Shown here one piece after another: positions 641-26,821 of a stretch of 39,042 nucleotides of DNA. How positions within the stretch are numbered: the stretch's first letter is position 1; each line of letters begins with the position of its first letter. Location of the stretch: positions 1-39,042 of the IMG/VR virus record IMGVR_UViG_3300031707_006572, one strand, 5' to 3'. The stretch comes from a virus. A model generated the notes under the pieces. That model did no database searches. It saw only the letters and a list, made by a program, of their open reading frames with translations, and had not been told where the DNA came from. Both the position numbers and the translations under genes were made by a program.

Positions 641-716
641 TTTTTCTTTGATGGGCGTGGCTCAGCCTCCTTAGAGCGTCCCGATCTTAATCGGGAAGGT
701 CATGGGTTCAAATCCG
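631..716 (+). repeat. 86-bp tRNA-chimera repeat, copy C
   Basis: This copy begins in the 3' acceptor strand of tRNA-Pro and is identical to copy A. It again ends with the T-loop and the tRNA-Pro type CAAATCCGC, followed by another CTCGCCCCGA at 717-726. The leftward integrase gene terminates inside it (stop codon 708-710, in the T-loop). It therefore marks the boundary between tRNA-derived and phage sequence. Confidence 0.75.
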
Positions 717-730
717 CTCGCCCCGACCAT
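700..730. other. candidate prophage attachment region (left end)
   Basis: Tandem tRNA-like sequence stops at about 726 and integrase coding sequence starts at 708, so the host-phage junction probably falls here. Large serine integrases use a very short crossover core (2 bp), so no long direct repeat is expected and the exact point cannot be read from one end. The matching right end is not in the window. Confidence 0.3.
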
Positions 731-2207
731 TTGCAACAAAAGGCCGTTCGGCGAGAAAGTCGAACGGCCTTCTCTTTGTGAGGTTTATAGTTACGTCGCT
801 CAGGAGTCGGTTCGAACTGACGCACTCCAAAATCTTGCGGCGACCCGCGAACTTCGAACCGTGCCAGATATCCACCAAGTTCTGGCTGAAATCGAACACG
901 GAAAGCGCGAGCCGCCCCGTTTCCTCTGTCACCGCACCGCCTCCACCCAATTGCCTTTCTACCTCTGCGAGTTGTGTTTTCAGTTCCACCGATTTGATAT
1001 TGAACGCGGCCTCGTCCACCGTTCCATTCAGGAACGCGTTGAGGAGGCGGTCCTGCATATTCGTGAGATCTGCACGGCGCTGAAAAAGCACCTTGCGGCG
1101 CTCCGCCTCGGTTTTGGCAGTGTCCTCGAATAGCGTCTCGATGGAATAGCGAAGCCACGTCTGCATTTCGGGGTCAGGAATGCGTATGGAGTCTAACTCG
1201 GTCAGAATAGCGCCTTCGACTTCTTCTTCGCGCCATCTGACGGGCGGATGCCCCTCCGGCTTGTGGTTATTGCCGCACTTATAATAGATGTGAGTGTTCT
1301 TGTTCCCGTCGCGTAATTTCCGGCGGATTTCCTCGCCAGTGACTGCGTATCCGCATACGGCGCAGCGGAGGACGCATCCTGAAAGCATGATGTCCGGGTT
1401 GCCCGTACGGCGGTTCTTGCCGTGGAGGATATTCTGGCATACGTCGAAGGTCCACGGGTCGATGATGAGTTTGTACTTGCCTTGGTATATCTGGTTATGG
1501 CGATGGAGTTCGCCAATGTAGAACCGATTGTTCAGGATCCGCGAGAGTCCGGTCCGCGTGAAACCCCGCTGGCTTGGCAGATAGGCGTGTCCCTCTGCTG
1601 CCAACTTTTCCGCGAGACTCTCGAAGGTGTACTGCGCGGACGCATACAGTTCAAATATTCGTTGAACGGCCTTGGATTCAACCGGATGCGGCTGAACCGG
1701 CTCGTTCTTGTCGTCAACGTTGATGTAACCGAAAGGGGCGAGACCGGTGGGCCAACCTTGGCGCACGCGTTCATCCATTCCTTTCAAAACTTCGGTGCGC
1801 AGGTTGTCGGAATAGTATTGCGCAACCGCCGCCATCACGTTGAAGGAAAGCGCACCGGCGGCACCGGGTCCGAACTGGTTGTCAACAAACGAGAGTTGAA
1901 CGCCGCAATCATCCTCGAGTTCCTGCAGGCGCACAGCGTCGCGCATGTTTCTGCAAACGCGGTCGAGTTTGTGCGCAAGGATGGCGTTGATTTTCTGCTT
2001 CTTTGCGTTCGATCTAACCCACTTAAACATCTCGTTGAACGCCACTCGCTCTGCGCCGCGCTTCGCCGATTCCGCCACCACGAACTCTCTGAGAACCGTC
2101 CATCCGTTCTTCACCGCTCTGTCACGCGTGGCTCGCAATTGCGCGTCGATGGAATAACCTTCACGCTGTTCGCGGCTGCTCACTCGTGCCCAAATGATGA
2201 CATTCAT
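708..2207 (-). CDS. int: large serine recombinase (phage integrase)
   Basis: A 499-residue recombinase, normal for large serine integrases. The N-terminal resolvase domain (about 1-150) has WARVSSREQREGYSIDAQ with the catalytic serine at residue 10 or 11. A recombinase domain follows (about 155-260). A zinc ribbon comes next, with CAVC in the conserved LRCAVCG stretch and a later cysteine in YYKCG. The C-terminal third contains a coiled coil used for synapsis control. It ends the leftward operon after the sigma-like gene and overlaps the preceding small gene by ATGA (2204-2207). The last residues (NGRGERI) are encoded by tRNA-like repeat C, so the native C terminus may differ in the unintegrated phage. 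Confidence 0.93.
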   Translation of the reverse strand: MNVIIWARVSSREQREGYSIDAQLRATRDRAVKNGWTVLREFVVAESAKRGAERVAFNEMFKWVRSNAKKQKINAILAHKLDRVCRNMRDAVRLQELEDDCGVQLSFVDNQFGPGAAGALSFNVMAAVAQYYSDNLRTEVLKGMDERVRQGWPTGLAPFGYINVDDKNEPVQPHPVESKAVQRIFELYASAQYTFESLAEKLAAEGHAYLPSQRGFTRTGLSRILNNRFYIGELHRHNQIYQGKYKLIIDPWTFDVCQNILHGKNRRTGNPDIMLSGCVLRCAVCGYAVTGEEIRRKLRDGNKNTHIYYKCGNNHKPEGHPPVRWREEEVEGAILTELDSIRIPDPEMQTWLRYSIETLFEDTAKTEAERRKVLFQRRADLTNMQDRLLNAFLNGTVDEAAFNIKSVELKTQLAEVERQLGGGGAVTEETGRLALSVFDFSQNLVDIWHGSKFAGRRKILECVSSNRLLSDVTINLTKRRPFDFLAERPFVANGRGERI

Positions 2208-2973: not shown

Positions 2974-3094
2974 CTGTGTCCCTCCCTTGTTCGCAATCCT
3001 AGTCCTCACGACCCCGGAACGACTCCGGGCTCACGAGCGCTATCTTCCATGCGCAAGGGGACAAAGTATGTAGGGCTGAAAGTGAGTGAGATTA

Positions 3095-3173
3095 CTCACG
3101 TGAGCACTCACGTGAGCGCAACATAGGGTGATACATGGGGGACATTTCACTCACGTGAGTACTCACGTGAGTG
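3095..3173. promoter_or_regulatory. operator array: four CTCACGTGAG palindromes
   Basis: Four perfect 10-bp palindromes CTCACGTGAG lie at 3095-3104, 3107-3116, 3150-3159 and 3162-3171. They form two pairs, each with 12-bp start-to-start spacing, and the pairs are 55 bp apart. The right pair is embedded in one perfect 26-bp palindrome (3148-3173). A degenerate half-site (TGAGTGAG) precedes the first pair. The array sits between the leftward integration operon and the rightward early operon, the usual place for a lysogeny switch. The binding protein is not identified; it may be the sigma-like protein or a host or phage repressor elsewhere. Confidence 0.8.
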
Positions 3174-3180
3174 GATGACC

Positions 3181-3216
3181 CTCCGGCAAATTTTCGAGCC
3201 GAGCGGCAAATAATAC
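3181..3216 (+). promoter_or_regulatory. paired CGGCAAA element before early operon
   Basis: The element reads CTCCGGCAAA, nine bases, then CGAGCGGCAAATAA, with two CGGCAAA repeats exactly 20 bp apart. The same element with the same spacing occurs at 25093-25125 before the late operon, and no other paired copy was seen. TAATAC directly after it could be a -10 box. It lies 45 bp upstream of the first early gene. It is probably a promoter or activator site used by the phage. Confidence 0.65.
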
Positions 3217-3260
3217 TGTGAGCGGCGGGATTGTCCGTCGCCGAACTACAGTAGGTATGT

Positions 3261-4100
3261 ATGGCCCGAAACATCAGCACACAGAGCATCATTGACGTTA
3301 TTGTCCGCGAACCAGATGCGGAATACCGCGAGAAGGCAAGGACACATCTGAGCAGCCACGCGCTGGCCGACTTCAGGAAGTGCCCCCTCCTTTATTGGCA
3401 AAAGCAGCAGGGACTCATTCATGACGAGGACAGACCCGCCTATTTCCTTGGTCGAGCGGCGCATGTTCTTATTCTTGAAGGCAGGGAACGTTTCGACCAG
3501 GAATATATCGTCGGAGCGCCCATCAACCCTCGGACCAGCAAACCCTACGGCGCAAACACTCAAGCATATGCCGACTGGGCTGCTGAACAAGGCAAGCCGG
3601 TTCTCAACGACGAGCAATTCGCATTAATCGCCAACCTTACGACGGGAGTCCGCTCCCACGCAATCGCAGGTGAACTGCTTTCCAACGGTATCGCCGAGGG
3701 CGTCGTCCGCATGGAGTATTGCGGCAGGTCATGCCAGACGCGAGTGGATTGGTTCAACCCGGAACGAGGCATCGTGGACCTGAAGACGTGCGACGATCTC
3801 ACATGGTTCGAGGCGGACGCTCGACGCTATGGATATGCACATCAGATGGCCTTCTATCGCGCCGTTCTTACTCAAGCCATCAGCGGCAACCTCGCAAGAC
3901 TCATTACGCAGATTCCCGTTCACATCATCGCTGTGGAAAAGAAGGCCCCATTCCGCTGCGGTGTGTGGGTTATGTCTGACCAGACTCTCGCTGTTGCGCA
4001 ACGCGAAAACGAGGCCGCTATCGCGCGCCTCAAATGTTGCGAGACCTCGACCTCATGGCCGACAGGCTACGAAGAGGTTCGTGTTTTCGATTACGTGTGA
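3261..4100 (+). CDS. PD-(D/E)XK exonuclease, RecE/exonuclease VIII-like (DUF3799 type)
   Basis: A 279-residue nuclease that probably resects double-stranded phage DNA for recombination. Visible core motifs of the RecB-like PD-(D/E)XK fold are LGRAAHVLILEG (motif with the metal-binding His, about 64-75), then RVDWFNPERGIVDLKTC, which supplies the catalytic D, D and K, then YAHQMAFYRAVL (QxxxY motif). It is the first gene of the early operon and is followed by a Sak4-type annealing ATPase, the usual exonuclease plus annealing-protein pair. The ATG at 3261 has a modest AGTAGG upstream. Confidence 0.88.
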   Translation: MARNISTQSIIDVIVREPDAEYREKARTHLSSHALADFRKCPLLYWQKQQGLIHDEDRPAYFLGRAAHVLILEGRERFDQEYIVGAPINPRTSKPYGANTQAYADWAAEQGKPVLNDEQFALIANLTTGVRSHAIAGELLSNGIAEGVVRMEYCGRSCQTRVDWFNPERGIVDLKTCDDLTWFEADARRYGYAHQMAFYRAVLTQAISGNLARLITQIPVHIIAVEKKAPFRCGVWVMSDQTLAVAQRENEAAIARLKCCETSTSWPTGYEEVRVFDYV

Positions 4101-11761: not shown

Positions 11762-12574
11762 ATGAACGCAGAGTTTCGCAAGGATTCGAGCATTAGGAAC
11801 GTGGAACGGATAACGCTCCACGAGGCGAAGCGGTTTTGTCTGCGCTGGCACTACTCGAAGATATTCCCGCCCCATTGTCTTGTGAACCTTGGTCTGCGGA
11901 ATGCTGCCGGAGAGTTGATTGCCGTCGCCATGTGGGGCTGGGGCGTGCGCCCGCGCCACACGATTCAGAAACTCTTTCCGAGTCTCGGCGTCCAGGATTA
12001 CCTCGAACTGAACCGTCTGTGCCTGCGCGACGACGAACCGCGCAACTCGGAGTCACACTTCATCTCACTCTGCGCGGAATGGATTCGCGTCAATTGCCCT
12101 GACGTGAAACTGCTCTTCACATGGGCGGATGGTCTTCGCGGCAAGCCGGGTTACGTTTATCAAGCGTCGTCATGGCTCTACGGCGGGTTCATCAAGACGG
12201 ACTTGTATGTGGACGAGCATGGCGGGCCAATTCATCCGCGCCTAATGATTACGCGCCTAGGCACACGCAGTCATGCGGAGTGGATGCGGCAGGGTTTCTC
12301 GAAGTGGAAGGGTTACCAGTTTCGGTATGTGAAGTTTCTCTGCGGTCATGCTGAACGGAAACGACTCCTGCGCGAGTCGTCGGTTCGCTGGGCGCAGGTA
12401 TATCCCAAAACAGCGGACTGCCGCTGGTGGGTTGATGCGGGGGAAGGCTCAAGAGAGAGCCACGAGCCGCCCAGGCTCGTAGGGACGGGGCAGTTCCGTC
12501 ACCCCGCTCCATTGCAAACAAACGTTGCCGAACAGCAACGATTACTTTTTGGAGGGGAACGCCATGAAAATTGA
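11762..12574 (+). CDS. Mom-like DNA-modification protein (GNAT fold)
   Basis: A 270-residue protein. The segments HYSKIFPPHCLVNLGL, LIAVAMWGWG, LELNRLCL, and LLFTWADGLRGKPGYVYQAS, then WLYGG, match the Mom family, whose founding member in phage Mu adds a carbamoylmethyl group to adenine to block restriction. The aromatic-rich core is intact. The C-terminal 60 residues look disordered. The next gene is a ParB-domain methyltransferase overlapping it by 11 bases, so both probably modify or protect phage DNA. A GAGAGGGG site precedes the ATG. Exact chemistry cannot be told from sequence alone. Confidence 0.82.
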   Translation: MNAEFRKDSSIRNVERITLHEAKRFCLRWHYSKIFPPHCLVNLGLRNAAGELIAVAMWGWGVRPRHTIQKLFPSLGVQDYLELNRLCLRDDEPRNSESHFISLCAEWIRVNCPDVKLLFTWADGLRGKPGYVYQASSWLYGGFIKTDLYVDEHGGPIHPRLMITRLGTRSHAEWMRQGFSKWKGYQFRYVKFLCGHAERKRLLRESSVRWAQVYPKTADCRWWVDAGEGSRESHEPPRLVGTGQFRHPAPLQTNVAEQQRLLFGGERHEN

Positions 12575-19232: not shown

Positions 19233-19943
19233 TTAATCATTTTTGGGCAGTTCATAACATGCACACGCATTAGGCATTCCAGAGGCTGTGCATGTGGCGT
19301 TATCTCTGCATTTGGCTGCGCATGTGGAAGATGAATGGCATATTTGCGGAAACTCGTGGCATCGCCTGATGACAACATCCCTCATAAACTCTTTCCAATG
19401 GTCAGCCTGCAAATGGTCGGCGGCAAGAATTGCCAGAAGGCCTGGCAGGTTTACAAAGGCACTGGGAATGCGCATTGTACGGCACCGTTGCAGTATCGCC
19501 TTATTCCGAACCTTAGTACGGCTACGGTTGAATGACTCAGGGCGACTGTCAAGAATGCGATTATCGTTTTGCGCATGACAGATTGGGTGTCTCTCTTGGA
19601 AAGGGAAAACGTAGTCATAGTGCAGACTTTCAGTCGCAAGTGCGGTCTTTTCGTAAATATGAAAGTAGTTAACACGGATTGTTGATTTCGTGCAACATCC
19701 GTCTTTCAGAGAAACTGTCTCCTGTATCTCAGCCAAAATGTCGATTTTCTCATTGCTGTCAACTCGGTATGGCCAGTCTCTACAATAGATCGGCTTAATA
19801 GTGTGTATGGATATATTTTGGCCGTTGGGGCTTGCTTGAATTTGGGCAGAAAGATCAACATCATAGTTTTTCTTGTATAGCCAGCCCAGGGCCTGCACGA
19901 GGAAATTGCTATACAGATCTTGAAAATGTTTAACCGAGAACAT
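19233..19943 (-). CDS. unknown protein, candidate effector of cargo operon
   Basis: A 236-residue protein read from 19943 after AGGAGGGAG, ten bases behind the receiver gene. The first 130 residues look alpha/beta (FLVQALGWLYKKNYDVDLSA, then IDILAEIQETVSL). A motif HYDYVFPFQERHPICHAQND carries several His/Asp and could be catalytic or metal-binding. The C terminus is rich in Cys and His (CHEFPQICH, then CAAKCRDNATCTA), suggesting a metal site. I do not recognise the family. Being the last gene of the operon, it is the most likely effector. Its GC content is lower than in phage genes. Confidence 0.7.
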   Translation of the reverse strand: MFSVKHFQDLYSNFLVQALGWLYKKNYDVDLSAQIQASPNGQNISIHTIKPIYCRDWPYRVDSNEKIDILAEIQETVSLKDGCCTKSTIRVNYFHIYEKTALATESLHYDYVFPFQERHPICHAQNDNRILDSRPESFNRSRTKVRNKAILQRCRTMRIPSAFVNLPGLLAILAADHLQADHWKEFMRDVVIRRCHEFPQICHSSSTCAAKCRDNATCTASGMPNACACYELPKND

Positions 19944-19953
19944 TATCTCCCTC

Positions 19954-21036
19954 CTAGTACATACCAATGAGAGCTGTGATGCTTTCAAACTTGTCCTTTC
20001 GGATGCGAGCCAAGTCCGCACCTGACGGGAACCAACTTATATTCCCGCGTGAATTTTCTAAAGACACTGGCTCCCGCATCAGCATGCAGTAGTAACCAGC
20101 CCGTTCTCTTGTCTGGGCATCTCTGCATTCCTTAGCCTTTCTGTAGCCACGAGACTTGATGTACTCAAGTCCGTCCTTGAAGCCGGCTCCATGCACAAAC
20201 GTGTCCAGTTCGCTGCGCCACCACCACGGTCCAAGTGAATGGTTATGAAACGGACCAGAGTACTTTGCTTTTTTGAATAGAGCACACACTTTGGGACTGT
20301 CAAAATCTCTACAGGCAATGTTGAGATAGCTCGCGGCCGCTGTATGGTTTACTAGTATGCCGGGGAACCGAAGGATAGACAGGAAAAGCCAATTGCCAAG
20401 AACTCGGGGCATGCGAGCGTATAGTGCGGGCATATCAGTTCTATCAGGGTCGTAGTACGTCATAATCTCGCGGAGAAAGCCTTGGTCACCCGCACCGTAT
20501 AGAGCGACACGGGATTCGCTCTCTGAGTGCCCAAGAATCTGAGCTAGTGCACCAGCAGGTGTAGTACCCTTCGTTTTCTTGACTTTCTTATATTCACAAT
20601 GCAAACGTTCGAAGCCATTGTACAGACACTCTATCTGGGGTGCCCAATCGGCTGCCTCCAACCCGTCCAGTGTAATCTGTTCGGAACTCCACTGCATCAA
20701 TCGCTTAAACTGAGCCATTTCCTTACCTGATGGTTGACGCGAATACTGACAAAATGGAATGCCTCTCTGGAGTGCAACTGCTGCAATGGGTGTTGCCGAC
20801 AAGCCCCGCAGTTGCGCATATCGGCCTAACTCTTTGTCACAGACAATGAGGCCGATCTGTTTTTTCTTGCATTGAGTGTCTATCCATTTACCAATATGCG
20901 TCTCATAACTCACGTCCTTCTTAAGAGAACATTGCTCATCGAAAGTCAGTACGACATTTCCACACCGCTTGCGCACCAATTCGTCAAGAGCATGGCGTTC
21001 TTTCGGATCATCCTCAAATATCAGAATATTGCTCAT
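19954..21036 (-). CDS. receiver-domain protein with unknown C-terminal domain
   Basis: A 360-residue protein starting 14 bases behind the double ATPase, with GGAGCAAGAAG upstream. Residues 1-105 look like a response-regulator receiver: acidic cluster EDD (8-10) after strand NILIF, candidate phospho-acceptor D67 in IGLIVCDKELG, and a later strand IPFCQYS ending in Ser99. The remaining 250 residues are not a standard DNA-binding output; they include ALYGAGDQGFLREIM and several Trp/His-rich stretches (HNHSLGPWWW). It would receive a signal from the histidine-kinase-like half of the ATPase. The receiver call is moderately sure; the output function is unknown. Confidence 0.72.
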   Translation of the reverse strand: MSNILIFEDDPKERHALDELVRKRCGNVVLTFDEQCSLKKDVSYETHIGKWIDTQCKKKQIGLIVCDKELGRYAQLRGLSATPIAAVALQRGIPFCQYSRQPSGKEMAQFKRLMQWSSEQITLDGLEAADWAPQIECLYNGFERLHCEYKKVKKTKGTTPAGALAQILGHSESESRVALYGAGDQGFLREIMTYYDPDRTDMPALYARMPRVLGNWLFLSILRFPGILVNHTAAASYLNIACRDFDSPKVCALFKKAKYSGPFHNHSLGPWWWRSELDTFVHGAGFKDGLEYIKSRGYRKAKECRDAQTRERAGYYCMLMREPVSLENSRGNISWFPSGADLARIRKDKFESITALIGMY

Positions 21037-21050
21037 CTTCTTGCTCCTTA

Positions 21051-23267
21051 CTATCGCCTGAACTCGACCCGAAAGCAGGTTGTGAAGCCTGGCGGCGGGT
21101 CAACAAGTGCAATGCGTCCCTTGATGTCAGATACGACCTTTTTGACCAAGGCGAGCCCCAAGCCCATGCCGGATCCCAAAGGATTGTATTGTTCACTCGA
21201 AGTGGTCGTAAACAACGGGTCCCAAATCCTCTTCTCTATCTCTGGGGGGATGCCGACTCCCGTATCTGCGACCTCTATCACGTGTGTCCTAGGTTCGTTC
21301 CATGCTTTTAGCACCACCTTGGCGTCTTTCTGTGCTTGTTCGCCACCCATTGTCGCCTTTAATGCATTGGTGTAAAGGTTCAAGATAACCCCTGTGTACA
21401 AAGCTCGTGGCAATGGCGGCGAGGTTACATCGTTCTTAACATCTATAGCAATGTCAATACCTCGCTCATCGGCAAGGTGTCGAAAGTGATGGGTCACAAG
21501 TTCTATAGCAGCTCGCGACTTGACCTCTTCCGACTCACGCGCTCTATCCTGCAATGCGCCTATGAAGGCGGTTGAGAAGTCCAGTTGTTCAACAACAGCA
21601 GAATGCGCATCTTGCACCTCCGCAATGATCCCTTGAGTGGTACTATCATTACCATATGCACGCTTGAGTTGATGAATAAGTTTTTCGAAGCCGTTTAGCA
21701 TGCGCTGCATCTCGTGTGTCACAAAGCCCGCAACGACCCCAAGCAGACCCATAATATCAAGTTTGGAAAATGCAAGCTGGTAATAATCTTCAACATCCGA
21801 TAATTCTTTTGATAGCTGTGTAAAGTGCGATACAACTTTTCCCCGATCTTCGTCGGACAGACCGGGCACGGATTTAATATATTCAGCAGCCTTTCGAAGG
21901 TCGGAACGAAGGCGTTTCGTTTCTTCCTTACGGCGAGCCTCTTCAAGTCTCCGCTGTTCACGATGGTCTGCATAAGCAAGCATTTCCAGACCCGCACGTA
22001 CAATCTCATGAAGATCCTGATATCCCTCATTGTCAACAAAGCCTTCCCTATCCATTGAGGGTGTAAGATCAGTTGGTCGACGTGAATCTGGCTTTTGCGA
22101 AGATACGACGAACACAGCACCAATAAGCTGGTGCATTTTAGGCAGGTAAAGCATGGGATTGTTGCGCGGCTGGGATCCCTCAGGAGGTATTGGGAAAAGT
22201 TGTCCCATCAGTACCGAGCGCCAGTTCCTGCGACTATGCGCACTATCCCAGCTCAAGTTAAGCCAGTCATCATCCTCAAATCCATAGGGCCGAATTCGGA
22301 AGCCGTGGTCAACAACACCAATACCGCCGTGGTCGCGAATCCATTTCCAAGCAGCATGTCCATCGACATCTGTATTTTGGAACATACCTGCGCGGCGCGG
22401 GAAATAGCGTATGTCCGCACAAAAACCGTTGGTAATATGGCTAGATTTTGAGACTATTTTCTTAAGAAGTGTGCGGCCGTCACGATGTGTAATATGAAAG
22501 TGTGTTTTCTTGCCATTGTGATTGATGGTGACGCGTGCATAAAAGCTGTTAACAACAGATGATGCCAGGTCACCTTGGCCTTCCCCCGCAATGCCCGGCA
22601 GGACAATGTTAAACCCAGGATCTTGTTTCGAACGACGACGTCGGCCAAAATTTCCACCATCGAGCCCAAAATACGGATTCACTAGCGACAGAAGTTCTGT
22701 CCGCATATCTCGGTCTATCACGTCTTCGCTAGGCGTTCGAAGATCAGTGATTATGAGAGTCGTTCCTATTGCTCTGTTGTTCGGCGCTACGCGCACCTCG
22801 TATGGAATGCGAACGGTATTTAGCTCACTTGACTGGTCAATCTGCTCCCAATCGAAATCGACGGTCAGAAGTGATCTGTCGACTTTCCCCCCGATTTGTG
22901 CAATGGTTTCCAACCGCAGGCGACGCCCCAGAAATCTTACCGCAAAGCGCCCAATCCCCTTTGAACCAGTCATTGTCCGTTTGTATTGACGTGACCGTCG
23001 GACCTGTTGCTTATCGGGGGTGGCAATGTGCATCCACTTGTTCAGGAACTCCTGTTCGGTCATTCCATGGCCATCGTCTTCAATAACGAGTCTATCGTGC
23101 TCGGATCTAACAGTACACAGGGCTGCGTCAGCATCGTATGAGTTCTTGATCAGTTCCATCAGCGCAACGTCAGCTTTGGCTACAAGGCGTTCGCCGAGTT
23201 CCTGCAAAAGCCGACCTTCTGTCTGAAAAGACGCGTGTCTTATCTTTACATCAGACTTAACCATCAC
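21051..23267 (-). CDS. double GHKL ATPase: MORC/Hsp90-like plus histidine-kinase-like
   Basis: A 738-residue protein with two GHKL ATPase domains. The first has the N-box MELIKNSYDAD (37-47), the G1 box EDDGHGM (63-69) and the G2 loop GSKGIGRF (101-108), as in MORC, MutL and Hsp90-type ATPases. The middle has a long coiled coil (about 425-500). Then comes a dimerisation-like helix with FVTHEM (His near 517), and a second ATPase with NLYTNALKA (about 632), VADTGVGIP (about 668) and GSGMGLGLAL (about 700), as in sensor histidine kinases. It overlaps the methyltransferase gene by 11 bases and precedes a receiver-like gene. It probably senses a DNA state with the first half and signals with the second. 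Confidence 0.88.
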   Translation of the reverse strand: MMVKSDVKIRHASFQTEGRLLQELGERLVAKADVALMELIKNSYDADAALCTVRSEHDRLVIEDDGHGMTEQEFLNKWMHIATPDKQQVRRSRQYKRTMTGSKGIGRFAVRFLGRRLRLETIAQIGGKVDRSLLTVDFDWEQIDQSSELNTVRIPYEVRVAPNNRAIGTTLIITDLRTPSEDVIDRDMRTELLSLVNPYFGLDGGNFGRRRRSKQDPGFNIVLPGIAGEGQGDLASSVVNSFYARVTINHNGKKTHFHITHRDGRTLLKKIVSKSSHITNGFCADIRYFPRRAGMFQNTDVDGHAAWKWIRDHGGIGVVDHGFRIRPYGFEDDDWLNLSWDSAHSRRNWRSVLMGQLFPIPPEGSQPRNNPMLYLPKMHQLIGAVFVVSSQKPDSRRPTDLTPSMDREGFVDNEGYQDLHEIVRAGLEMLAYADHREQRRLEEARRKEETKRLRSDLRKAAEYIKSVPGLSDEDRGKVVSHFTQLSKELSDVEDYYQLAFSKLDIMGLLGVVAGFVTHEMQRMLNGFEKLIHQLKRAYGNDSTTQGIIAEVQDAHSAVVEQLDFSTAFIGALQDRARESEEVKSRAAIELVTHHFRHLADERGIDIAIDVKNDVTSPPLPRALYTGVILNLYTNALKATMGGEQAQKDAKVVLKAWNEPRTHVIEVADTGVGIPPEIEKRIWDPLFTTTSSEQYNPLGSGMGLGLALVKKVVSDIKGRIALVDPPPGFTTCFRVEFRR

Positions 23268-24573
23268 CGCACTCCGCGCGAATAAATTCGTTCAAGACAG
23301 CGTTTAGCTGTCGTATCTCAATCTTCTTGAGCAACTTTGCATGCGGAACAACTTGGGCCTCGAAGTTGGTTTTGACCAGGAAATCACGTACTCGCGTCAG
23401 GGAACGCCTTTGATCCGTATAGACTCCACAAACAGATCCGACTGCGTGTGCCTCAATGGAATTCAGCAGTACTTTGGGTCCGAACTTTGTAAATCCTGTG
23501 CTAACCAGCAATCTCGGGGCGTTAAACAGCGGGTATTTGTACCAAGGATTCTGAGACATACACGTCGACGTCCCGCGAGACCGCTCAGGTACAGAATCCA
23601 AATACACATGAAGCCTCGATGAGAAACGGCCAGAGTAAGACTTAATTAACCAACACTTCGCACCAGCGTCTATGAAGTGCTTTCGGAATACAGCCTTTGA
23701 AAGACGCGTCACGTTCCTAGGCACTTCGCGTAGCGAGGTCACACATGGCAAGACATCCTTACGAGATAAACCAGCGTGAACGCGCTCGCCTTCAGTCAAG
23801 GTGAATATCTTCTGCGTGCCGGGGCTCATCCCACGCTTTGCCCACAGTGCGCCCCGGTTTTCGTATGTTAGCACGTGGTATCTTGAACCTGTAGCATGAA
23901 GGGATGGGGAAATATTTCCATCTCGTCGTAGCTTGAAGAACGACCACTCGCCGTCGTCGCACGCCTTGTCAATTACAGAAATAGAAGCGGTCGTTAGCAC
24001 GTTATCGAATATTGACTCTGTGAATTTATAGGTGTCAACATGCCAACCATTTTGTTTGATGAATCGTCGGAGTGGTTCGGCTGATGGCCGCGAAACCCAT
24101 TCGTACGGCACCACCGTGGAGACGATCCCGCCTTCTGCAGACTTCAGCAACGCGAGAAAGATGAAGTAGACAAATAAGTTGCATTTTCGGTTCAGCGACA
24201 CCCCGGTCTCTTTCGCAATTCTAGCTGCAATGCGGTCACGCCATGAATGCTCCAAATCGTGATGGCGAACATAAGGAGGGTTGCCAATGCAGGCATCGAA
24301 CCCAGTTCCAGCATGCTTGAATGCACACCCATATCGGATCACCGCATTGCTGGGCAACTTGTCAGACGGTTTTTGCCCCGGGTCTATTTCGATACCTTCA
24401 TATGTCTCGTATCGCCCACCCAAAGCAAAACGGCCATCGCCCGCTCCCAAGTCGAACACACGCGATAACTGCGGGCGATACGTATGCGTTATCTCCCAGA
24501 ACAGGCTAACGACGTCATGTGGCGTTGAAACCTGTGAACGAGAAAGCTCGTATGCCGTCTTCTTCCTACCCAT
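23257..24573 (-). CDS. N6-adenine DNA methyltransferase, TaqI/Eco57I-like
   Basis: A 438-residue methyltransferase. Motif I is VFDLGAGDGRF (39-49), an acidic residue follows in GIEIDPG (60-66), and motif IV is NPPY (98-101), so it is of the gamma-class order. The C-terminal half (after about 230) would be the target-recognition domain. No nuclease motif is seen, so it is a modification enzyme or part of a system whose restriction arm is in the other genes. It is the first gene of the four-gene leftward cargo operon and starts after GAGAGG. Confidence 0.88.
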   Translation of the reverse strand: MGRKKTAYELSRSQVSTPHDVVSLFWEITHTYRPQLSRVFDLGAGDGRFALGGRYETYEGIEIDPGQKPSDKLPSNAVIRYGCAFKHAGTGFDACIGNPPYVRHHDLEHSWRDRIAARIAKETGVSLNRKCNLFVYFIFLALLKSAEGGIVSTVVPYEWVSRPSAEPLRRFIKQNGWHVDTYKFTESIFDNVLTTASISVIDKACDDGEWSFFKLRRDGNISPSLHATGSRYHVLTYENRGALWAKRGMSPGTQKIFTLTEGERVHAGLSRKDVLPCVTSLREVPRNVTRLSKAVFRKHFIDAGAKCWLIKSYSGRFSSRLHVYLDSVPERSRGTSTCMSQNPWYKYPLFNAPRLLVSTGFTKFGPKVLLNSIEAHAVGSVCGVYTDQRRSLTRVRDFLVKTNFEAQVVPHAKLLKKIEIRQLNAVLNEFIRAECGDG

Positions 24574-25092: not shown

Positions 25093-25125
25093 CTCCGGCA
25101 AAAAAACGCGTCGAGCGGCAAATAA
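25093..25125 (+). promoter_or_regulatory. paired CGGCAAA element before late operon
   Basis: CTCCGGCAAA, nine bases, CGAGCGGCAAATAA: the same boxes and spacing as at 3181-3213, but with a different spacer. It lies 38 bases before the first late gene. TAAGAT follows in the position of a -10 box. Shared use before both rightward operons points to a common activator or phage sigma factor. Confidence 0.65.
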
Positions 25126-25163
25126 GATCATAGGCGCGACCATTTTTCTCACGGTGACAACTC

Positions 25164-25361
25164 ATGGCGAATGACATTGAGGATGCGATCCAGAAAAACG
25201 CCAAGGGACCGAAGCGAGCCAAAGGCGACTCGGGCGAGATTGAGCAGCACGACCCGACACAACTGATTGAAGTCGCTCGGTTCACTGCGTCCACGACGGC
25301 CGTGAAGAAAAAGCCATTCGGATTACGGCGCGCGAAACTGATTCCGCCGGGGGCGGACTGA
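25164..25361 (+). CDS. small protein in gpW position
   Basis: A 65-residue basic protein between the packaging and portal genes. Size, position and a positively charged C terminus ending GLRRAKLIPPGAD recall lambda gpW-type head-tail joining proteins, but the sequence similarity is not strong. Its stop codon overlaps the portal start (TGATG). It is the first gene of the late operon. Confidence 0.7.
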   Translation: MANDIEDAIQKNAKGPKRAKGDSGEIEQHDPTQLIEVARFTASTTAVKKKPFGLRRAKLIPPGAD

Positions 25362-26821
25362 TGGGATTGCTGAACAGAATCTTTGGACATAGGAAGACCG
25401 AGACCGTGAGCCTGCCGAGGCGGGTGCAGGTGGTTCGCGGCCGCTATGACGCGGCGACGATCAACGACGACAACCGCCGCCACTGGGCAAATGCGGATGG
25501 CCTGTCCGCGAATGCGGCAAACTCCCCGGAAGTGCGGCGGCGTCTGCGGAACAACGCGCGCTACGAGGTGGCGAATAACTCGTATGCCAAGGGAATTGTG
25601 CTGACGTTGGCTAATGACTGTATCGGCACCGGGCCGCGCCTTCAGATGCTAACGGACAACCCGGAAGTCAATCGCGTCATTGAAACGGCGTTCGCGGAAT
25701 GGGCAAGGTTGATTCGGCTGGCAGAGAAACTCCGCACGATGCGCATGGGGAAAGCGGAAGACGGTGAAGGATTCGGAATCATAGTCAACAATCCTACGTT
25801 ATCGATGCCGGTGCAACTGGATTTGCGCCTTGTCGAAGCGGACCAGGTGGCTACGCCGTTCTTTACACCCATGGCGAGTTATGCCGTTGACGGAATCGTC
25901 TTCGACACGTCGTGGAACCCGGTTGAGTATCACGTCTTGAGGAACCATCCGGGCGACACGGTCAGAGTACAGACACTGGAATATGACACGGTCAAGGCGG
26001 AAGCGGTCATTCACTACTTCCGCGCGGACCGTCCAGGACAAGCGCGTGGAATACCAGAGATCATGTCCGCGTTGCCGCTCTTCGCGCAGTTGCGAAGGTA
26101 CACACTGGCCGTCATTGCGGCGGCAGAAACAGCGGCGGATCACGCGCTCGTGATTTACACGGACGCGCCAGCAAACGGTGAAGCCGACTCGCTCGAAGCG
26201 ATGGACACGGTCGAGTTGGAAAAACGCATGGCGACGGTCATGCCGGGCGGTTGGAAGTTGGCACAGACTCAGGCAGAGCAGCCGACCACGACCTACGCGG
26301 AATTCAAGAAGGAAGTTCTGAACGAGATCGCGCGTTGCCTGAACATGCCGTTCAACATCGCGGCCGGAAATTCGAGCGGCTACAACTACTCGTCGGGACG
26401 GCTCGACCACCAGACTTACTACAAGGCCATCCGCGTTGAGCAGTCGCACATCGAGACAGTCGTGCTGGACCGCATTCTGAACGCGTGGCTGTCCGAGGCG
26501 GTCCTGATTGAGGGATTGCTACCACAGCCAGCAAGGATCAAAGGCGCGCGGTTCGCGCATCAGTGGTTCTGGGACGGACATGAGCATGTTGACCCGGCGA
26601 AAGAAGCGAACGCGCAGGACACGCGGCTTAAGAACAACACAACTACTCTCGCGCACGAGTATGCGAAGCAGGGACTCGACTGGGAATCGGAACTGAGACA
26701 GCGCGCAAAGGAAGTCGCACTCATGAATCAACTGGGACTAAGCATGGCGCAAGCAACACCGGCACCCGTGCCGGTTGCGGATAATCAAAATACCGAAGAC
26801 GGACAAACTCCAGAGGAATAG
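25361..26821 (+). CDS. phage portal protein, lambda family
   Basis: A 486-residue protein of the lambda portal family (Phage_portal_2). The stretch NDDNRRHWANADGLSANAAN, then NNARYEVANNSYAKGIVLTL, ending GTGP is the typical N-terminal part; NMPFNIAAGNSSGYNYSSGR is the conserved C-terminal part. It forms the ring through which DNA enters the capsid. The C-terminal tail is flexible. The next gene starts two bases after the stop. Confidence 0.93.
   Translation: MGLLNRIFGHRKTETVSLPRRVQVVRGRYDAATINDDNRRHWANADGLSANAANSPEVRRRLRNNARYEVANNSYAKGIVLTLANDCIGTGPRLQMLTDNPEVNRVIETAFAEWARLIRLAEKLRTMRMGKAEDGEGFGIIVNNPTLSMPVQLDLRLVEADQVATPFFTPMASYAVDGIVFDTSWNPVEYHVLRNHPGDTVRVQTLEYDTVKAEAVIHYFRADRPGQARGIPEIMSALPLFAQLRRYTLAVIAAAETAADHALVIYTDAPANGEADSLEAMDTVELEKRMATVMPGGWKLAQTQAEQPTTTYAEFKKEVLNEIARCLNMPFNIAAGNSSGYNYSSGRLDHQTYYKAIRVEQSHIETVVLDRILNAWLSEAVLIEGLLPQPARIKGARFAHQWFWDGHEHVDPAKEANAQDTRLKNNTTTLAHEYAKQGLDWESELRQRAKEVALMNQLGLSMAQATPAPVPVADNQNTEDGQTPEE

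Follow-up and report, generated by a model that had tools for sequence, protein, structure and literature searches.

Phage-encoded sigma factors that work with the host core RNA polymerase provide the closest described counterparts of the locus analyzed here. In Salmonella phage 7-11, the sigma factor SaPh711_gp47 serves late genes only, and its late promoters are bipartite, GTAAtg-16-aCTA (PMC8948821). E. coli phage phiEco32 uses one sigma factor, gp36, for two temporal gene classes, with middle and late promoters that carry a single element, tAATGTAtA (PMC8948821, PMC4331800). Its genome includes, in addition, a gene for gp79, which inhibits host transcription. Among cellular sigma factors, the ECF (group IV) proteins SigW and SigE are composed of two domains, regions 2 and 4, and use a purine-rich -35 box; in SigW, it is established that the recognition helix of region 4 reads the -35 element (PMC6713349). 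Our literature searches returned no described transcription program for phages of Planctomycetota.

The stretch examined in this study, hereafter the window, is the 39,042-nucleotide IMG/VR virus record IMGVR_UViG_3300031707_006572. It contains two copies of a spaced element, one before the early replication operon and one before the head operon. We read both copies as one promoter class, used by the host core RNA polymerase together with a phage-encoded ECF-like sigma factor (2470-2973), and assign this reading a probability of about 0.86. The predicted arrangement resembles that of phage 7-11 in pairing a phage sigma with the host polymerase at a bipartite promoter, and that of phiEco32 in serving two temporal gene classes with one sigma factor. 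Unlike in phage 7-11, the consensus is a different one, sites stand before both the replication and the head operon, the sigma gene diverges from the early promoter, an integrase is carried, and the probable host belongs to the Planctomycetota; no counterpart of gp79 was identified in the window phage. The window sigma factor shares the two domains and the purine-rich -35 box of SigW and SigE but is phage-borne, has no recognizable anti-sigma, and has no Pfam sigma match. Most likely, the mechanism is that of phages 7-11 and phiEco32, a phage sigma with its cognate promoters, set in a different consensus, gene arrangement, temperate context and host phylum.

Features of the window discussed in the text
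Feature	Position	Strand	Remarks
Early promoter (predicted)	3181..3221	+	geometry from 30-site alignment
Early -35, GGCAAA	3185-3190	+	followed by 17-bp spacer
Early -10 region, GCGGCAAATAA	3203-3213	+	AAATAA hexamer 3208-3213
Early predicted +1	G3220	+	41-nt leader up to DUF3799 start codon at 3261
Late promoter (predicted)	25093..25133	+	-35 GGCAAA 25097-25102, -10 region GCGGCAAATAA 25115-25125
Late predicted +1	A25132	+	same geometry as early copy
ECF-like sigma factor, 167 aa	2470..2973	-	divergent from early operon; proposed reader of both promoters
DUF3799 (PDDEXK nuclease-like)	3261..4100	+	first early-operon gene; then AAA_24, DUF669, helicase, AAA_25
First head-operon genes	25164..26821	+	small gene 25164-25361, lambda-type portal 25361-26821, then capsid
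Serine recombinase (integrase)	708..2207	-	Pfam Resolvase/Recombinase; downstream of sigma gene, same strand
Small ORF, 93 aa	2204..2485	-	between sigma and recombinase genes; overlaps sigma gene end
ACTCACGTGAGT palindrome cluster	3094..3173	.	directly upstream of early -35
Degenerate palindrome copy TTCTGCCGGTGTAA of TTCTACCGGTAGAA	25046..25059	.	upstream of head operon
Opposite-strand cassette, terminase-portal gap	19233-24573	-	Eco57I-type methylase, HATPase_c_3/HATPase_c protein, two unknown proteins

Two copies of a spaced element

The element CTCCGGCAAA-N9-CGAGCGGCAAATAA is found exactly twice in the window, at 3181 and 25093, on the same strand. Searched as CTCCGGCAAANNNNNNNNNCGAGCGGCAAATAA (24 fixed bases), it matches 3181-3213 and 25093-25125 with 0 mismatches, and 100 dinucleotide-preserving shuffles of the sequence gave no match even with up to 3 mismatches allowed. 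A sequence-only reading of this DNA had reported such a pair, with equal spacing and unlike spacers, and its coordinates and strand hold; the two N9 spacers, TTTTCGAGC and AAAACGCGT, are identical at only 3 of 9 positions. The pair is the sole dispersed one in the window with a 10-gap9-14 signature, the remaining signatures of this kind all lying within a tRNA-like tandem repeat at ~100-700, seen from both strands. Lone CGGCAAA boxes are frequent (16 in the window against 9.7 expected) and mean nothing by themselves. With 24 bases common to both copies, the repeat could be pictured as a recent, functionless duplication. This is exceedingly improbable, as the spacers differ at 6 of 9 positions and both the early and the late position are found occupied in relatives with 50-70% protein identity.

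The tandem-repeat region also contains a tRNA-Pro gene (563-641) and repeated tRNA 3' ends at ~102, 188 and 631, beside the serine recombinase gene. The 3'-end repeats (~100-720) are probably remnants of attachment sites.

Predicted promoter anatomy

The geometry of the element is best read as that of a promoter rather than a double activator site. Thirty sites from diverse Planctomycetota prophages could be aligned without gaps. Conservation in this alignment, numbered by its own columns, falls on AA at -14/-13, GCGGCAAATAA (0..10), T in columns 14 and 16, and a purine in column 17. The right box, GCGGCAAATAA, is nearly invariant, while relatives keep only GC(G/A)AA or GCAAT of the left box, the full CTCCGGCAAA being peculiar to this phage. 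If AAATAA is taken as the -10 hexamer (-12 to -7), GGCAAA occupies -35 to -30, the spacer measures 17 bp, and alignment position 17 becomes +1. A T then falls at -1, and the predicted start is a purine 7 nt beyond the hexamer. Judged from this geometry, the layout would be the anatomy of a sigma-dependent promoter. The boxes would be its -35 and -10 elements, since the right one is fixed and the left one varies with the recognition helix of the sigma factor, and the 20-bp distance between boxes would follow from the 17-bp spacer. The GCGGC box of the 3181 copy lies 58 nt ahead of the DUF3799/AAA_24/DUF669/helicase operon, and the 25093 copy lies 49 nt ahead of the small gene that is followed by portal and capsid genes.

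At the early site, a scan with the sigma-70 consensus gave no plus-strand promoter of host type. On the minus strand it returned one weak candidate, at 3237-3210, which could drive the sigma gene. Promoters of ECF sigma factors are usually of the GGAAC/CGTC type, from which the consensus described here differs. Promoters of FliA/sigma-28 have the form TAAA-N15-GCCGATAA. Compared with these, CAAA-N15-GCAAATAA in the present element has the same spacing and shares the ATAA end. The window sigma factor differs in that its matches are ECF sigmas with two domains and its model lacks region 3, and the resemblance is a lead only.

The pair could instead be a tandem operator bound by an activator or by a repressor, with two equal half-sites placed two helical turns apart. 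In this phage, CGGCAAA lies within both boxes, 20 bp apart; in relatives, however, the left box reads GCGAAG, GCGAAC or AGCAAT while the right box stays GCGGCAAATAA. In addition, conservation extends to the T/purine start, orientation and distance to the gene are fixed, and separate palindromes nearby are better operator candidates. We consider a tandem operator very unlikely, and the double activator site that the sequence-only reading had offered as one option is not supported, given the divergence of the boxes across relatives, in which the left changes and the right is fixed. Less likely again, to a clear degree, is that the conserved stretch acts not as a DNA promoter but as an RNA element of the leader, for example an anti-termination site or a hairpin. 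By eye, a possible hairpin lies just past the predicted start in the window and in three relatives (L183, L176 and L062), but the conserved bases are upstream of the predicted start, conservation falls off beyond +1, and the left box varies in step with a helix that recognizes DNA.

Occurrence in relatives and host genomes

Relatives were gathered through their DUF3799 and portal genes, and the element was recovered in diverged phages. All strong matches in the fetched loci lie either 40-370 nt before a DUF3799/AAA replication operon or 50-95 nt before a head-gene operon. When the loci fetched by that stage were scanned with a weight matrix, every match above 24 bits preceded a replication or head operon, and the reversed-sequence control reached a maximum of 17 bits. 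A consensus pattern scan of 2.9 million viral contigs returned 15 contigs, 13 with early and 2 with late sites. One of the relatives, L165, was recovered by DNA pattern alone and has a portal gene downstream of the site. Two matches from the first contig scan (L003 and L004) were chance matches and were dropped. The late position is also occupied in L165, L280/L164, L086 and L087. The late copy is not universal among relatives; in one long relative (L275/L276), the early site is present but no copy precedes the head genes. The scans of the window and its relatives that the sequence-only reading had called for find the same two operon positions recurring, and a predicted bipartite promoter that is phage-specific recurs before phage operons.

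DUF3799 relatives in species genomes are mostly found in the Planctomycetota, which points to a planctomycete as host of the window phage. Across 22 genomes or records with relatives, pattern matches outside prophages occur at about the control level. We also scanned 294 Planctomycetota genomes blindly with a sequence-only model and strict filters, which may miss weak sites. Many unrelated copies in host genomes would have spoken against a phage-specific element. The scan returned 11 matches, 7 of them at the two prophage positions: five early-type sites before DUF3799 beside a sigma gene (L285, L287, L289, L290 and L295) and two late-type sites before head-maturation-protease/capsid genes (L286 and L288). 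The other 4 of 11 looked like chance matches. They were set aside, two (L291 and L292) because they lie inside long ORFs, one (L293) for its low score, and one (L294) because it is upstream of a release-factor-like gene outside any recognized prophage.

These counts bear on the possibility that the sites are promoters of an alternative or ECF sigma factor of the host, exploited by phages. Planctomycetota harbor many ECF sigma factors, and the geometry of such promoters would look alike. The site is nevertheless nearly confined to prophages (7 of 11 matches, the other four being two intragenic and two weak), and it follows a phage sigma family, with a -35 box that varies with the recognition helix of that protein. 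A host sigma factor is improbable as the reader, though it is marginally the strongest of the alternatives. The proposal that the element is a phage-specific promoter coordinating early and late transcription is well supported by its canonical -35/-10/+1 geometry, by the recurrence of both operon positions in unrelated relatives, by its absence from host genomes outside prophages, and by the association and covariation with a sigma factor described below.

The phage-encoded sigma factor

The protein encoded divergently from the early operon matches phrog_1740, "RNA polymerase sigma factor" (E=1e-6). A profile built from 29 of its relatives matches ECF SigE/SigL over residues 19-169, covering both domains. 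Its AlphaFold model has a mean pLDDT of 91.9, with helices at 29-94 and 99-158, and sigma factors rank first among its fold matches. Global TM-scores of these matches are modest (0.3-0.4), probably because the two sigma domains are placed differently relative to each other. Sigma regions 2 and 4 are present by PHROG, profile and structure model, and, as in ECF sigma factors of ~170-200 aa, they are the only ones, region 3 and region 1.1 being absent. A Pfam search with the window protein gave no match; among the 29 relatives, 12 match Sigma70_ECF and 6 match Sigma70_r4_2, all weakly. Likewise, tblastn against viral contigs returned no relatives of the window protein because it is too diverged, and relatives were instead reached through the neighboring gene and by profile. 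A conserved hairpin in the sigma leader was considered and rejected, as it is held in only a few loci.

Presence of the predicted promoter tracks the sigma gene across phages. Among 106 dereplicated DUF3799 loci, 20 have both the site and a divergent sigma gene, 71 have neither, 11 have the sigma gene only, so that some sigma-bearing loci carry no recognizable site, and 4 have the site only, all of these weak. In the reverse approach, sigma genes were sought by protein alone in 392 genomes and 16 loci were examined, 3 of which (L300, L302 and L303) duplicate or nearly duplicate earlier loci. The right promoter half is found divergently upstream, at 220-300 nt, in 12 of the 16 (>12 bits), while among 48 control maxima one reached 13.3 and the other 47 stayed at <=5 bits.

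In six relatives without the promoter (L005, L084, L177, L199, L214 and L220), the sigma-like gene upstream of DUF3799 is of another kind and runs in the same direction. These relatives may use another promoter class.

Covariation of the recognition helix and the -35 box

Covariation was computed over 167 x 41 combinations of sigma residue and site position, for 24 sigma/site pairs and then for 34, with 10 added. With 24 pairs, residue H143 and alignment position -16 gave both the top mutual-information z-score and the top corrected value. With 34 pairs, the strongest covariation was between residue 142, in the region-4 recognition helix, and position -16, in the -35 box. The highest blocks of the matrix are those of the region-4 recognition helix with the -35 box, and this was unchanged by the added pairs. 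In 24 of 25 cases W142 is accompanied by C at -16, and other residues go without C in 9 of 9; the rule held in 33 of 34 pairs. Taken together, residues 142/143 covary strongly with positions -16/-15. In the set of 34, covariation also links position 4 of the -10 region to residue 72, which lies in sigma region 2.

Mapped on the tree, the recognition helix changed 4 times, with 1 independent pair on well-supported branches. The tree-based independent-pairs test did not reach significance, there being too few changes. Because helix changes are few, shared ancestry could contribute to the covariation, which is strong but short of proof. The sigma gene also adjoins the early promoter, so joint variation is partly linkage, and of the two promoters only the late one, which is distant, escapes this effect. 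Finally, the C/G difference at -16 admits a second description, namely that the GC dinucleotide has moved by one base. Given these three considerations, we grade direct recognition of the promoter by the sigma factor as very likely.

Candidate operators and a proposed circuit

The ACTCACGTGAGT palindromes are likely the operator for a phage regulator. They are common to the window and L182; many other relatives carry a different palindrome nearby. In many sigma-bearing relatives (L182, L013, L255, L281, L184 and others), palindromes lie within ~100 nt upstream of -35 and their sequences depend on the phage, differences that resemble those of immunity-specific operators. Before the head operon, TTCTACCGGTAGAA (or TTCTACCCGTAGAA) is found 27-290 nt upstream in 24 of 80 portal loci. 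Loci with this type of palindrome include L148, L085, L088 and L159, among others, some of them without the sigma promoter. It is a candidate site for a late regulator.

In the circuit that we propose, a host-type promoter governed through the ACTCACGTGAGT operators would express the leftward genes, and derepression at these operators would lead to expression of the sigma factor, the small ORF and the serine integrase. The sigma factor would then read the left box (-35) with its region 4 and the right box GCGGCAAATAA (-10) with its region 2, firing the divergent replication operon from 3261 onward. In this phage it would also fire the head operon at 25164, which is parted from terminase by a restriction-modification-like cassette. 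The 93-aa ORF (2204-2485) is conserved in ~20 relatives and has no match in Pfam, PHROGs or PADLOC; an anti-sigma and a recombination directionality factor are possible roles, both guesses.

More broadly, a large group of temperate Planctomycetota phages may possess a self-contained sigma/promoter switch in which -35 specificity diversifies through helix changes alongside phage-specific operators, so that the transcription of one prophage could be insulated from that of related prophages in the same cell. We offer this tentatively, as somewhat doubtful. Such insulation, if true, would amount to an immunity-like system whose basis is a sigma factor and not only a repressor. The results define a consensus for the promoter, name a sigma factor and offer a residue-to-base code that can be tested, all for a large number of uncultured Planctomycetota phages, whose lytic operons could become predictable from sequence. 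They also provide a candidate orthogonal sigma/promoter pair for a phylum short of genetic tools, and suggest that one sigma factor can serve both replication and structural genes in temperate phages.

The opposite-strand cassette would hamper read-through from upstream, making a second promoter useful. Its HATPase_c_3/HATPase_c protein has weak matches to type II restriction enzymes. Three relatives with near-identical portals (L086, L087 and L088) have different DNA at this position, so the terminase-portal gap looks like a cargo hotspot. The link between cassette and late promoter is not strict, since the late site is present in L165 and L280, where the cassette is missing, and both are missing from L275/L276. 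Elsewhere in the window, a Mom-family DNA modification protein adjoins a ParB-N/N6_N4 methylase (11762-12574), and hypermodification of the phage DNA is possible.
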